Positions 4,360 through 45,476 of a DNA stretch of 64,000 nucleotides are shown piece after piece (the stretch's first letter is position 1; the number at the start of each line of letters is the position of its first letter). The stretch spans positions 1,488,001-1,552,000 of the forward strand of contig NZ_CP132336.1 in the NCBI RefSeq assembly GCF_030758315.1, in the 5' to 3' direction. Both the position numbers and the translations under genes were made by a program. Origin of the DNA: Pararhizobium sp. IMCC3301 (lineage in GTDB: Bacteria > Pseudomonadota > Alphaproteobacteria > Rhizobiales > GCA-2746425). Under the pieces are notes generated by a model. The model was given only the letters and a program-made list of their open reading frames with translations, did not search any database and was not told where the DNA came from.

Positions 4360-5028
4360 ATGAGTGATGAACTCAAAGCGGTGGCGCGGGAACGAGTTGG
4401 CAAGGGGGCCGCTCGGGCAACGCGTCGTGAAGGTCTTGTACCTGGCGTCATTTATGGCGACAAAAAACCACCACTGTCTATCGCCCTGCCTGCCAAAGAA
4501 ACAGCCCTTGCTGCCAACAGCGACAGCTTCATGGCCCGCGTTATCAACCTTGATGTCGATGGCAAGACCCATTCGGTCATCGCCAAGGATGTGCAACGCG
4601 ATCCTGTCAAGGATTTCGTCATCCATGTCGACTTTCTGCGCGTTGGCAAGGGCAGTATCCTGACCGTTAACGTGCCTGTCCACTTCATCAATGAAGAGGC
4701 TGCACCGGGTCTGGAACGCGGCGGCGTGCTGAACATTGTGCGCCACGAAGTGGAATGCGATGTTCCGGGCAATGCGGTTCCTGAATTCCTCGAAGGTGAT
4801 CTGACCGGTCTTGATATCGGCGATGGCCTGCATATTTCTGCAATCAAGCTTCCGCCGGGCGTTGTTCCCACCATCACCGATCGTGATTTCACGATCGCCA
4901 CGATCGCGGCGCCGGCTTCGCTTAAGAGTGAAGAAGACGAGGAAGCTGAAGCTGCGGCAGCTGAAGAAGCAGCCGAAGGCGAAAGCGAAGACGCTGCTGC
5001 AGAAGACGGCGACAGCACCGAAGAGTAA
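4360..5028 (+). CDS. rplY: 50S ribosomal protein L25 / general stress protein Ctc
   Basis: 222 aa from ATG 4360; the GTG at 4351 is possible but less typical. The N-terminal L25 domain (about residues 1-95, with [20 protein letters not shown]) binds 5S rRNA. The C-terminal TL5/CTC beta domain (about 100-190) is the long version found in alphaproteobacteria. The last ~35 residues are almost only Glu, Asp, Ala and Ser, an acidic disordered tail. rplY-pth-ychF is a conserved order in this group. Confidence 0.95.
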
Positions 5029-38555: not shown

Positions 38556-38657
38556 GCGCCGGATCGAACGCTGTTAGAGCACGTTTTGCACAAAAGCGTT
38601 TCTGTCCAGCCTGTGGCCGGACAGCTCAGTCTGCCAAATGCGATTTTGCCACTGATC

Positions 38658-38705
38658 TTGAAAACAGATACGACAGATGACATATATTTAAGTGACACCT
38701 GTCAC
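38658..38705 (+). promoter_or_regulatory. Promoter and operator of the DUF2384/RES pair
   Basis: A -35-like TTGAAA (38658-38663) and an AT-rich -10 region (CATATATTT, 38681-38689) are followed by the inverted repeat GTGACA-CC-TGTCAC (38692-38705), near the likely transcription start. Antitoxins of this type normally autoregulate, so the repeat is a candidate binding site. Inference from position and symmetry. Confidence 0.6.
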
Positions 38706-38720
38706 AAAATGGAGGTTCCC

Positions 38721-39197
38721 ATGGCTGGAGCAACACTGGCAGAGCATGACGATATTGCCCGCACCATTGCGCTTCTGGGCGGTCAGGCCACCATCGGCAG
38801 ACCAGTCAGAAACAATCTGGAAGCCCACGACCTGCTCATCGCCGGGCTGCCTGCGTCGGCGCTACTGCATCTGACGAAAGAGGTTGGTTTCCTGACATCT
38901 TCCCGAGGGATTTTGGAAAAGGCGGTCGGGATTAGCGTAAGAACGCTTCAACGCCGAAAGGCGGCCGCCAATAGATCCCTGCTTGACGTTGACCAAAGTA
39001 ACCGCACGTGGAAATTCGCGGAGATACTTGGCCGTGCCACACAGATTTTCGGGTCCAGAGAAGACGCTGAGGCATGGATGAACCGACCTGCGATCGGATT
39101 GAACCAACGCAAACCCATCGACTTGCTTGCAACCTCAATCGGACTGGAAGCGGTGGAGGACTATCTCACTCGTATTGAATATGGGGTCTATGCGTGA
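38721..39197 (+). CDS. Xre/MbcA/ParS-type antitoxin (DUF2384)
   Basis: 158 aa from ATG 38721, which has GGAGG 5 nt upstream. The N-terminal part forms an Xre-like helical region (LTKEVGFLTSSRGILEKAVGISVRTLQRRK) and the C-terminal DUF2384 domain contains W-FAEILGRATQIFGSREDAEAWMNRPAIGLNQRKPIDLLATSIGLEAVEDYLTRIEYGVYA, the sequence that blocks the toxin's active site in solved relatives (shown here as pieces). Its stop overlaps the toxin start (GTGA), as usual for this pair. Confidence 0.92.
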   Translation: MAGATLAEHDDIARTIALLGGQATIGRPVRNNLEAHDLLIAGLPASALLHLTKEVGFLTSSRGILEKAVGISVRTLQRRKAAANRSLLDVDQSNRTWKFAEILGRATQIFGSREDAEAWMNRPAIGLNQRKPIDLLATSIGLEAVEDYLTRIEYGVYA

Positions 39198-39691
39198 CCC
39201 CGCTTCCGCCACCTTTGGGAACCGGAGAACTCCGTTTCTGGCGCCTCGATGCGCAACGACATGCTGCAACCTGGCAGAGCGGTGAAGGCAGCTTCAGGGT
39301 CGGCGGACGCTGGAACTCATCCGGCGTTCGCACTATCTATGCGTCCCTTGATCCGGCAACAGCGGTGCTTGAAGTCGCGGTTCACAAAGGTTTCAATGTG
39401 CTTGATACACAGCCGCACATCCTGATCTGCGGCAGAATAAACGATCCTGCCCTGATCACAGTTGTAACACCTGACGATATTCCAAACCCTAACTGGCTGA
39501 CCCCCGGAACTCCGAACACCAACCAGCAATTATACGGAGACGAATTACTCAAGGAACACCGCTTCGTGCTCATCCCCAGCGCCGTGTCACGCCACAGCTG
39601 GAACCTGATTTTCAATGCTGACAAAACCGTCACAGACTATGATGATGTCTGGCAGGAACGCTTTGCGTTGGATCCCCGGCTGCAACCTTGA
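39194..39691 (+). CDS. RES-domain toxin
   Basis: 165 aa from GTG 39194. RES toxins degrade cellular NAD+. Residues that correspond to the known active site are visible: Arg39 in RVGGRWN, Tyr49 in TIYAS, Glu60 in VLEVAVH and Ser129 in LIPSAVS. The R-E-S signature is intact, so the toxin is probably active when free. It begins inside the last codons of the antitoxin and has no own promoter visible. Confidence 0.93.
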   Translation: MTPLPPPLGTGELRFWRLDAQRHAATWQSGEGSFRVGGRWNSSGVRTIYASLDPATAVLEVAVHKGFNVLDTQPHILICGRINDPALITVVTPDDIPNPNWLTPGTPNTNQQLYGDELLKEHRFVLIPSAVSRHSWNLIFNADKTVTDYDDVWQERFALDPRLQP

Positions 39692-41348: not shown

Positions 41349-41770
41349 GCTATATGTACTCCTTACAGGTTCAAGCCAACCGCCATATCGGACGCTTTCC
41401 AGCATTTGTAACCAACATGACGGAATAGTTTATCGGCACATTATCAGCGACAATTGCGGCTTGGCATTGGGCAAATTCAGTTGATTTTGTGACGAATTGT
41501 GCTCATTTCACGTCAAAAGTTTGTCCTTGGATTTTGCGGCGAGGCTGTCTGCCTCGCAGAGCTGTGCTTTTGGTTGATAAAAGTTGATCCATCGTCTCCA
41601 AGGCAGTGCTGTTCTCACGGTGGTCTCGCGTAGCCCCTGTTTTCCAACATTGACCTGAGGCAATTCAGTGCGTGTAAAATATATTTGACATAGAGAATTA
41701 AATATCATACTCCGTGTCCAGTTATTTTGACCACTCGCGCCGAACGGCTGCGCCACACAGGAAGACCATC
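41349..41770. other. 422-bp intergenic region: promoters on both sides, one hairpin
   Basis: No gene is visible. Contents: minus-strand promoter-like TTGTCG...AACTAT for the outer-membrane protein gene (roughly 41420-41450); a GCGAGGC-TGTCT-GCCTCGC hairpin (about 41540-41560) without T-run; plus-strand TTGACC (41650-41655) with TGTAAA/TAAAAT 17-19 nt later, and TTGACA at 41685-41690, both candidates for the membrane-protein gene. AT content rises towards 41700. Confidence 0.4.
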
Positions 41771-42220
41771 ATGATTTACAAGGACCGCAACAATGTGGTG
41801 TCGATCATCACGGCCCTGATCGTGAATTTCTACATCGTGTTTCGGCTGTTCGACATGAACCAGGCGAGCCTGTTCGACGGGCCCGATGCCGTCAATGTCT
41901 GGGCGCGGATGGTGGTTTGGGTGATCCCGATTTCGATTGGCGTCACCATCGTCGGCACAATCCTGTTCAACATTGGCTACGCAATCGTCACCGGCAACCC
42001 GAAACCGAGCTTTCTGGTCGATGAGCGTGATCACCTGTTTGACCGGCGCAGCAGCACGGCTGTCGTGGTCTGTGCGGGTGCTGGCTTCATGCTGGCGCTG
42101 GTCGGGCTGGCCTATGGCTGGTCGGCATTGATTGGATTCAACATCATCTTTTTCGCCATGGCACTTGGCTCACTATCCGCCGATATCATCAAATTCATCA
42201 GTTACCGGCGGGGCTATTAA
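41771..42220 (+). CDS. Small integral membrane protein (partner of the XRE regulator)
   Basis: 149 aa from ATG 41771, preceded by AGGAAG. Four hydrophobic segments (VVSIITALIVNFYIVFRL, VVWVIPISIGVTIVGTILFNIG, TAVVVCAGAGFMLALVGLAYG, LIGFNIIFFAMALGSLSADIIKF) with a DERDHLFDRRS loop between the second and third. This layout resembles DUF2178-type proteins that sit beside a small XRE regulator. Function unknown. The next gene starts 3 bp after its stop. Confidence 0.8.
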   Translation: MIYKDRNNVVSIITALIVNFYIVFRLFDMNQASLFDGPDAVNVWARMVVWVIPISIGVTIVGTILFNIGYAIVTGNPKPSFLVDERDHLFDRRSSTAVVVCAGAGFMLALVGLAYGWSALIGFNIIFFAMALGSLSADIIKFISYRRGY

Positions 42221-42223
42221 GCC

Positions 42224-42442
42224 ATGGGGAAATTGAAAATTTCCAACAACATCAGACGCCTGCGATTTGACGCCGGTGAAATGACGCAAAAAGACCTGGC
42301 CGAAAAAGTCAGCGTGACACGCCAGACCATCGTCGCCATTGAGAATGCCAAATACTCGCCGACGCTGGAACTGGCGATTCTCATCTCCCGTGTTTTCGGC
42401 AAACCGCTTGAAGAGGTGTTCAACATCGAAGACGCCAGTTAG
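42224..42442 (+). CDS. Small XRE-type helix-turn-helix regulator
   Basis: 72 aa, consisting almost only of the HTH domain: NNIRRLRFDAGEMTQKDLAEKVSVTRQTIVAIENAKYSPTLELAILISRVFGKPLEEVFNI. This is the YozG/YgzD-like short form. The sequence fits DNA binding to a palindromic operator, possibly in its own promoter. Closely coupled to the membrane protein gene. Confidence 0.92.
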   Translation: MGKLKISNNIRRLRFDAGEMTQKDLAEKVSVTRQTIVAIENAKYSPTLELAILISRVFGKPLEEVFNIEDAS

Positions 42443-42603
42443 CGCAGCTAATTGAGCCGGAAGGCGAAAATTTATGGAAGCGACCCATGGTCTGGCCTGA
42501 CCCATCCTTATAACCCTCGCCGAGTGGCTGATCCGGCGAAAATGACGCGGTTCGGCACAGCCTCCCGCCCCTTCGTGTTTCTGTCACAAAAAAGGAACCT
42601 GAC

Positions 42604-43236
42604 ATGCTTTTTCAACCCACAACCTTCTGGAACCTCATGGCCCGTCGCTATGCCCGCAGTCCGATCAAAAACCTCGAAGCCTATCAACACAAGCTTGATA
42701 TGACCGCCCGATACCTGTCCCCTCAGGATCGGCTGCTGGAATTTGGCTGCGGCACCGGAACCACAGCGCTGATCCATGCCGCGCGCGTGTCCCATATCGA
42801 CGCAATCGACTTTTCGTCCGAAATGATCGCGATCGCGCGCGAAAAAGTCGTCGAGCAAAATGTCACCAATGTCAGGTTCGAAGTGGCTGAACTCGAGGAC
42901 TGGCCCATACCAGAGGACGGCGACGGCTATGATGCAGTGCTGGCAATGTCGATCCTGCACCTCGTCACCGATCTGGACGCCACACTCGGCCGGGTGTATC
43001 AGGCGTTGAAACCCGGCGGACTGTTGTTTTCTTCAACCGCGTGCATTGGCAGTCAGAGTGCATTGCTCCGGTCCATCCTGCCGCCCCTCGGCGCCATTGG
43101 CATATTACCAAAAATTCTCATGCTGACGCCCGACATGCTGACACAAGCCATGACCGCTCAGGGTCTGACCGTCGAACATTTCTGGCAACCCGCCAAAGAT
43201 GCCGCAGCGTTTGTCATTGCGCGCAGACCGGAATAG
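42604..43236 (+). CDS. Class I SAM-dependent methyltransferase
   Basis: 210 aa. Motif I is LLEFGCGTGTTAL, motif II IDAIDFSSEMI, and the region VLAMSILHLVTDLDATLGRVYQALKPGGLLFSS matches Methyltransf_11/25 folds. AAAAGGAACC lies 7 nt before the ATG. Substrate unknown; no pathway genes are adjacent. 161 bp separate it from the XRE gene. Confidence 0.88.
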   Translation: MLFQPTTFWNLMARRYARSPIKNLEAYQHKLDMTARYLSPQDRLLEFGCGTGTTALIHAARVSHIDAIDFSSEMIAIAREKVVEQNVTNVRFEVAELEDWPIPEDGDGYDAVLAMSILHLVTDLDATLGRVYQALKPGGLLFSSTACIGSQSALLRSILPPLGAIGILPKILMLTPDMLTQAMTAQGLTVEHFWQPAKDAAAFVIARRPE

Positions 43237-43570
43237 CAGCAATACGCCAACGGTCGCTTGCGAGCCGGTGCAGATATGCTCGCAAGCAAATGGACAATGA
43301 GCCGGCCATGCCGTGAGATACAGTAGCGCCAACTGGCATGCGCGGCAGGTCCGGGTTGCCGGACTTGCACGTCCGTTGAGAAATTCAAGTTGTCGTCCGC
43401 CTGTTGCAAAATCGCGCCTTTTTGCAACGGCAACAAATTTCCACTCAATTCCTAGAATGCCAAACAAAGGATACGCATCTACACCATGGTTACGATTGAT
43501 GTTGACATCAAAGGACACGTGTGTAATCCTGGGTTATCGATATGCACTCTTTGGCTGGAAAGGTCTGAAA
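43237..43570. other. 334-bp intergenic region with inverted repeats
   Basis: No convincing gene. A perfect 10-bp inverted repeat (GCTTGCGAGC, 43256-43265, and GCTCGCAAGC, 43278-43287) lies 20 bp after the methyltransferase stop and may end its transcript although no T-run follows. A short GTCCGG-GTTG-CCGGAC hairpin lies near 43350. From about 43400 base composition becomes AT-richer. Confidence 0.6.
43497..43512. promoter_or_regulatory. Inverted repeat overlapping a -35 element
   Basis: TTGATGT-TG-ACATCAA has perfect 7-bp arms and contains TTGACA (43502-43507), a consensus -35 box, about 64 bp before the small HTH gene. It is a candidate operator for that protein. It is not an FNR box because the gap between TTGAT and ATCAA is six, not four. 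Confidence 0.5.
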
Positions 43571-43849
43571 ATGAGCAATCCCATTGCAACCATCACCGAA
43601 CTCGAACAACACTTGGCAGCAGGTCTTCGTGCCCTTAGTGAGCTAAAGGCACATTTATTAACTGACACTCCTTCTGCAACAGAAGATGGCCTCAAGCGTA
43701 ATGATGGACGCATGTCAGAGGCGGGAATCGCGGCGCTATATGCCGAATTCGCCCAATCAGAACTCACGAATACGCAAATTGCTCACAAATTTGATATTTC
43801 GCTGTCAGGCGTAAAGCAGCGGCGTAGAATGTGGCGGAAGGGGCAATAG
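43571..43849 (+). CDS. Small protein with a C-terminal helix-turn-helix
   Basis: 92 aa from ATG 43571; the frame is open far upstream but only this part looks protein-like. The first half (ATITELEQHLAAGLRALSELKAHLL) is a predicted long helix, and the second (MSEAGIAALYAEFAQSELTNTQIAHKFDISLSGVKQRRRMWRKG) resembles a homeodomain-like HTH with a basic end. No specific family recognised. It is convergent with the Shedu gene, 143 bp apart, and its own upstream palindrome suggests autoregulation. Confidence 0.55.
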   Translation: MSNPIATITELEQHLAAGLRALSELKAHLLTDTPSATEDGLKRNDGRMSEAGIAALYAEFAQSELTNTQIAHKFDISLSGVKQRRRMWRKGQ

Positions 43850-43992
43850 CTTCCCCATATGACCGCTTTGCGCAGTAGATTCTCGCTAGACTTTTGCGAC
43901 AAAGTTTTACGACACCTAAGCTGTTGAATTCACAGGCTGCGAAAACCCGTTGCAAAAACCTTCGTTTCTGCGACACAATTTAGACATTGATC

Positions 43993-45156
43993 TCACTCGT
44001 CGCGAGTGATGAATTGCGCCCGCTCAAGCAACTCGTCAAACGTCACGATCTCTATGGTCCGGTTCTCTCGGCGAAAAAGTTCAAATGTGTCATGCTTAAT
44101 TTGAGCTGCCCTCTCATCGTCCGCTCTACTAAATTCGCTCCGTAAGCCCACTACCAAGACTGTCTTGGCGTTCCTCGTTCTCGCTTCAATTTTGCGAGTT
44201 CCAGTTTTGTTGAAATGGTCGCCAACCTGCGCGAAAGACAACCATCTTGCTTTTTGTTCAATGACTTGAGAAACGGCGCTCAAGAAATCTGGGCTGAATT
44301 CCCAGGTGCCAGCCCTACCACCTCGGCTTGACCTAAATATTGGAGTGTCAGGACGCTTGATCTCCACGAGAACGGTGTAATCCGTGAAGTTCATAAGGAA
44401 GTCGACAAACGGCTTGTTCTGGTTATCAGAACCACCACTGCCTACTGCCATCTCACGATCAAACTGACGCATTATGCGGTAGTCTAACCCATAGCCAAAA
44501 ACCCATTGCTGACGATCGAAGAAATCCTGCCATTCAGGTTCAGCCCAGTCACCCAAGCAAATATGCTTTTCAAACTCCTCCAACCCTTTACGCCTACCCA
44601 AGAGAATGTTGATTTCTTCGCTCGTCAGAGCCCCTTGAAGCGCCCGTATGATTTGCTCTCGCTCACCTGCTTCCATTTCCTTAAATTGCTTGATGATCGC
44701 ACTATCGGACGCATCGACTATGGACTTTTTGCCTGCTTGCGTTGAAATATCCTCGATTTGAAAATTCTGCTCATTTGATAAGTTGATGAATTCAATCTGT
44801 TTTAGAAAGCACACCAACCGTTCAAATTCGTCACTTCGGAACGTGAATTCATCCTTTTCAACAGACTGTATCCAATCACCTGCCCGATTTTTGAAGGACT
44901 GCAACGTGACTCGTTTGATCTGCTTGTCGTCTTGACTCACGTACGCCGTAATTTGCGTTTTCCGTGTCTTCCCAGTTAGTCGAAGACACATCGCCCCCTC
45001 AATCTCGCCAAGATGCAACTTATCCGAACCTTCAAGCACTATACGCACTTGGCGACGTCGTTCGGTGGAGTGCGCATCGTAAGAAAAAACCCTTGAAATA
45101 TATGTTTTCCCTTCCTTCCGCATCTCAAAAAATTTGAAATCTTCTTCATCGCTCAT
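43993..45156 (-). CDS. sduA: Shedu anti-phage nuclease (DUF4263)
   Basis: 387 aa from ATG 45156, with AGGAT 7 nt upstream; the frame starts at TTG 45162. The C-terminal DUF4263 domain (about 195-385) shows the family pattern WQDFFDRQQWVFGYGLDYRI, and the PD-(D/E)xK nuclease core VDFLMNFTDYTVLVEIKRP with D252, E265 and K267. Shedu is a single-gene defence system; the N-terminal half (residues 1-190) is a variable sensor region, here with beta-strand-rich segments and no recognised domain. Codon use is visibly more AT-rich than in neighbours, pointing to acquisition by transfer. Confidence 0.9.
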   Translation of the reverse strand: MSDEEDFKFFEMRKEGKTYISRVFSYDAHSTERRRQVRIVLEGSDKLHLGEIEGAMCLRLTGKTRKTQITAYVSQDDKQIKRVTLQSFKNRAGDWIQSVEKDEFTFRSDEFERLVCFLKQIEFINLSNEQNFQIEDISTQAGKKSIVDASDSAIIKQFKEMEAGEREQIIRALQGALTSEEINILLGRRKGLEEFEKHICLGDWAEPEWQDFFDRQQWVFGYGLDYRIMRQFDREMAVGSGGSDNQNKPFVDFLMNFTDYTVLVEIKRPDTPIFRSSRGGRAGTWEFSPDFLSAVSQVIEQKARWLSFAQVGDHFNKTGTRKIEARTRNAKTVLVVGLRSEFSRADDERAAQIKHDTFELFRRENRTIEIVTFDELLERAQFITRDE

Positions 45157-45476
45157 AATCAAATCCTAGCCTCGTCCGGCATTGCCGCTTCTTGCCAATT
45201 TCCACTTAGTTGCTTGAAGCTTCCAGCCACAGGCATAATTGATGGTTTTTGCGCCACACACAAACGCCTTCATAACCTCAGTCTATGGCCCTGCCAACTG
45301 GCCTCGATTTCGGGCCCGACGCTTCAAATCCGGATTTTCTGTCTTATATAGGCTAGCAGCACAGGGGGCTCATGGGGTTGGCGGTTGCCGATCCGGCATG
45401 CCTCTGTGCGCGCTAAAAAATCAGGTGCCGGGCGCAATTCCGGGTGCTCTCCGCAAATCAAGGACGCTCCCTCGTA
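45157..45476. other. 320-bp intergenic region without clear gene
   Basis: Between the divergent Shedu and antiporter genes. Open frames here do not resemble known proteins. The only structure noted is a GCACAGGGGGC / GCCTCTGTGC imperfect inverted repeat around 45358-45415. No tRNA or attachment-site duplication was found at this edge of the AT-rich segment. Confidence 0.5.

Follow-up and report, generated by a model that had tools for sequence, protein, structure and literature searches.

A probable stand-alone Shedu (SduA) anti-phage nuclease, horizontally acquired, in Pararhizobium sp. IMCC3301

Introduction

Does the open reading frame at positions 43993-45156 of the stretch analysed here encode an anti-phage protein of a known kind or one with a new way of sensing its target, and how did it come to lie in this genome? 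The stretch, referred to below as the window, comprises 64,000 nucleotides of Pararhizobium sp. IMCC3301 (contig NZ_CP132336.1). Our analysis identifies the gene as what is most probably a stand-alone Shedu (SduA) anti-phage nuclease that was horizontally acquired, its anti-phage role being assigned by family membership.

Results

The gene encodes a full-length Shedu nuclease

The longest open reading frame at the locus comprises 389 amino acids, from a TTG at 45162 to 43993 on the minus strand. Agreement with relatives places the start at the ATG at 45156, giving a protein of 387 amino acids that matches exactly the coordinates of the initial annotation. The frame is open and its length is normal. 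Catalytic and invariant residues are numbered here according to the 387-residue form, while ranges from Pfam and PADLOC refer to the 389-residue form.

43993..45156, minus strand: sduA, Shedu nuclease, 387 aa (PF14082, PADLOC PDLC00392, full-length relatives 58-69% identical)
44023..44541, minus strand: PD-(D/E)XK nuclease domain (SduA_C), about residues 206-377 of the 387-aa form, with D252, E265 and K267 intact (Pfam; solved Shedu structures by sequence and fold)

The gene product is a single protein with about 190 amino acids preceding the nuclease, and it is matched over practically its whole length by the PADLOC SduA model PDLC00392 (residues 3-389 to positions 1-392 of 396, E 1.8e-140, 466.6 bits) as well as, end to end, by PDLC00394 (E 2e-56). 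Its plasmid-borne relatives are annotated by NCBI as 'Shedu immune nuclease family protein', and NCBIfam returned no model for the SduA protein. No conserved partner gene was seen beside Shedu relatives in the neighbourhoods examined.

In a Pfam scan of the whole protein SduA_C is the only match (PF14082, residues 208-379, E 1.6e-29, 103.6 bits against a cut-off of 27). An alignment of 15 proteins, reaching down to 22-29% identity, shows D252, E265 and K267 to be invariant, together with W209, Q210, F212, W218 and G221 of the WQDFF..WVFG block. This bears out the description of the DUF4263 core as intact, with most of the block invariant among relatives. E265 aligns with a residue that is glutamate in the solved Shedu structure 8ti8 and alanine in the 8ti9 construct. 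The nuclease part finds 8ti8 by sequence search (6.5e-11), and profile searches over the same part match both 8ti8 and 8ps4. For structural comparison we used an AlphaFold model computed from 11 sequences, in which the nuclease domain is usable and partly confident; a first model built with six close relatives was useless (pLDDT 37). The predicted nuclease structure superimposes on 8ti9 with Z 15.7 (185 residues, 23% identity) and on 8ps4 with Z 11.8 (182 residues, 14% identity). The Pfam family, the PADLOC models, the invariant residues and the fold match to solved Shedu proteins all agree with the identity first proposed for the nuclease.

The gene lies in a segment that congeners lack

With a GC content of 46.7%, sduA is the lowest of the 54 open reading frames in the window (mean 56.3%, z -3.2), as expected from the earlier remark that the DNA is AT-richer and unlike its neighbours. 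Relatives of sduA occur in none of four congeners and in two of 60 relatives drawn from the genus and the order, there at 63-64% identity. Proteins 58-69% identical are scattered over the Alphaproteobacteria and their plasmids. The near relatives stand singly, in differing chromosomal contexts and also on plasmids, and two of the plasmid-borne ones adjoin restriction systems. Searches of phage records and viral contigs turned up no close relative; a few viral contigs carry distant ones (about 25-36%).

Comparison with congeners G001, G002 and G003 delimits an empty site. In each of the three, homology extends up to about position 41518, is followed by about 165-175 bp, and resumes from 45452 on, which leaves a gap of 3.9 kb relative to IMCC3301 with sduA inside it.

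41519..45451, no strand: segment absent at the same position in congeners; G001-G003 align on both sides; carries 41714-42220, 42604-43236, 43571-43849 and sduA

The check in sister genomes that the initial annotation had proposed thus found sduA missing in all four congeners, rather than at the same place in all relatives with normal composition. Its view that the DNA was probably transferred is strengthened by this absence, by the 3.9-kb gap and by the low GC content. Since the gene has the lowest GC of the window, is absent from congeners, faces an empty site there and is patchily distributed, its gain by horizontal transfer is well supported. The window contains no tRNA, Rfam gave no match around the sduA locus, and the 3.9-kb insert holds no recognisable transposase or integrase.

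The segment is heterogeneous, in that its methyltransferase gene is of normal GC content and has relatives (70-71%) elsewhere in G002 and G003; more than a single step may therefore have gone into building the segment. The methyltransferase (42604-43236) is SAM-dependent; its 70-71% identical proteins lie at a different place in those two genomes, and none as close occurs in G001 or G004. The open reading frame at 41714-42220 encodes a hydrophobic protein of 168 amino acids without a Pfam match and has an unusually high GC3 (75%). Outside the segment, 38586-39691 holds a pair consisting of an Xre-like antitoxin (PF09722, PF20432) and a RES-domain toxin (PF08808), for which the congeners compared show no DNA match at the corresponding place.

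A putative resolvase-type site adjoins sduA

A repeat of about 90 bp adjoins the 3' end of sduA, ending some 15-20 bp away from the stop codon.

43886..43979, no strand: putative resolvase-type site (TTTTGCGACA..TTTTACGACA..GTTGCAAAAACC..TTTCTGCGACAC) (copies in the genome; same layout upstream of a resolvase gene)

A further TTTTGCGACA / GTTGCAAAAACC-type pair is located at 43402-43428; 0.2 such motifs are expected per shuffled 64-kb window. Two additional copies of the site, 77-81% alike, are found in the IMCC3301 genome (G000:C1:2291681 and 3651773), where the same layout also stands immediately upstream of a gene encoding a serine resolvase (PF00239, 9.6e-44). Congeners G001 and G003 contain more copies, and the one in G003 has a resolvase gene, with the same start and length, some 400 bp away. 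A site at L089:4048 goes with a resolvase at 4446-5021. From this arrangement we infer that the repeats are probably resolvase-type recombination sites. The site beside sduA supports the arrival of the gene with a mobile element; the opposite flank of sduA showed no matching repeat. The dispersed sites with the TTTTGCGACA motif, which occur singly in IMCC3301 and two congeners, may be traces left where members of a small family of mobile elements inserted. A small, AT-richer open reading frame (43571-43849, 92 aa) with a weak helix-turn-helix match, present as a single copy in the genome, is flanked by the two repeat sites near sduA.

A foreign base composition and an adjoining site of this type would also suit a gene that is degenerating, no longer functional and carried along by a mobile element. 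We consider such decay decidedly unlikely, given that the frame is intact, its length normal and every invariant residue kept. An intact, acquired SduA remains our reading of the gene.

The N-terminal region belongs to a catalogued Shedu group

44599..45156, minus strand: N-terminal regulatory region, residues 1-186, of which residues 1-149 are common to a second Shedu cluster (PADLOC N-termini, profile-profile match, no Pfam family)

The N-terminal ~190 residues had been described as no recognised domain and as a possible new sensor type. The first statement holds for Pfam, where a search with residues 1-186 and seven relatives gave chance matches only; it does not hold for PADLOC, whose SduA models cover the region. 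Taken alone, the N-terminal ~180 residues match PDLC00392 at 3.7e-42 and PDLC00394 at 7.3e-18, and the same matches are found in all seven relatives. Residues 1-149 are further linked by profile-profile comparison (probability 99.3, P 3.2e-20) to a second Shedu group from Bradyrhizobium, Rhizobium, Phaeobacter and Arthrobacter plasmids and from viral contigs. This N-terminus also occurs in SduA proteins that are about 27% identical and come from plasmids of other Alphaproteobacteria; the Arthrobacter protein is the most divergent member, with a weaker likeness in this part. Among 397 genomes of the order the N-terminus is present in eight, every time in an open reading frame of about 390-440 amino acids, and the seven carriers other than the window protein align to it end to end. 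In this sample the N-terminus is restricted to Shedu proteins.

Taken together, the PADLOC matches, the profile link and the Shedu-only occurrence mark the N-terminus, as judged from sequence, as an already catalogued one and not a new type found here. The suggestion of a new sensor type is not supported. What the initial annotation had named as refuting it, an N-terminal part matching an already described Shedu class, is largely what was found, with the proviso that a PADLOC cluster is a sequence group, not a tested function. A study classifying Shedu N-terminal types reportedly includes many of them, and inclusion of the IMCC3301 type is therefore likely. That residues 1-190 have no Pfam family and that no solved structure is matched by sequence would fit a new Shedu sensor class; we judge such a class very unlikely indeed, because both the full-length protein and its N-terminus alone match PDLC00392 and PDLC00394, and related N-termini occur in Shedu proteins of several orders. 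Slightly less improbable, and still unlikely, is that the N-terminal region of these two clusters forms a distinct, hitherto uncharacterised sensor domain that responds to a trigger other than DNA ends, of which IMCC3301 SduA would be one alphaproteobacterial representative.

Structural approaches to the region yielded little. A search of PDB sequences with the profile of residues 1-186 and seven relatives gave chance matches only. In the AlphaFold model from 11 sequences the N-terminus is poor (pLDDT mostly under 65); its best structural hit in the PDB, 6baq (Z 5.2), scores no better than noise, and we assign no fold. An N-terminal alignment to Bacillus cereus SduA was weak and is treated as unproven: it disappeared on removal of two B. 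cereus-like sequences (L026 and L027) from the profile, which then aligned to solved Shedu proteins from position 151 onward only.

Discussion

A mechanism can be drawn up for IMCC3301 SduA from characterised Shedu proteins. The Escherichia coli protein is reported to form a homotetramer in which DNA ends are bound by an N-terminal clamp, whereupon the nuclease nicks at a fixed distance (PMC12904381); the Vibrio cholerae protein requires its GHKL N-terminus (PMC12137116). By analogy, IMCC3301 SduA would form a homo-oligomer in which the N-terminal region holds the PD-(D/E)XK nuclease inactive. Once the N-terminal region bound a DNA signal associated with the phage, most likely a free DNA end, the nuclease would be released and would nick or cut phage DNA. 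The nuclease step is well founded for this protein; DNA ends as the trigger are a guess. Because the N-terminus has no confident match to the solved Shedu N-termini, DNA-end sensing is carried over by analogy.

The same nuclease could instead be coupled to an N-terminus that senses another signal, such as a phage protein, a replication intermediate or incoming plasmid DNA. This we hold to be a serious contender at somewhat below even chances: Shedu N-termini are diverse, a type with a GHKL ATPase is documented (PMC12137116) and no alignment joins the IMCC3301 N-terminus to the solved types, yet nothing positive points to another ligand, and all proteins found with this N-terminus are Shedu proteins of ordinary size. 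We retain a DNA end as the most likely signal in the proposed mechanism.

The locus adds an intact Shedu protein to a lineage whose congeners are without one, and the empty site allows comparison. It also illustrates how one Shedu N-terminal type is spread over chromosomes and plasmids of the Alphaproteobacteria. The sduA call is useful as annotation, and the ligand of the N-terminus is a fair if routine question.

Comparison with known Shedu systems

The closest known groups are the PDLC00392 and PDLC00394 clusters, which IMCC3301 SduA matches over its full length including the N-terminus, and which are sequence groups, not function-tested classes. With Bacillus cereus SduA (8ti8, 8ti9) the protein shares the nuclease domain, with the catalytic glutamate and lysine aligned, whereas the two N-termini show no confident alignment. 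Escherichia coli SduA (8ps4, 8ps5), a type I Shedu, resembles it in the fold of the nuclease domain and in being a single-gene system, at 14% identity; a comparison with the N-terminal DNA-end clamp of the E. coli protein gave no alignment of the IMCC3301 N-terminus to 8ps4 by sequence or by fold, the model being of low confidence there. Vibrio cholerae VcSduA (type I-D, PMC12137116) has the DUF4263 nuclease in common with IMCC3301 SduA, but its N-terminus is a GHKL ATPase domain, none of which was matched in the IMCC3301 protein (no HATPase_c in a Pfam scan at E up to 1). IMCC3301 SduA is an ordinary member of a known single-protein defence type and not a new kind of system.
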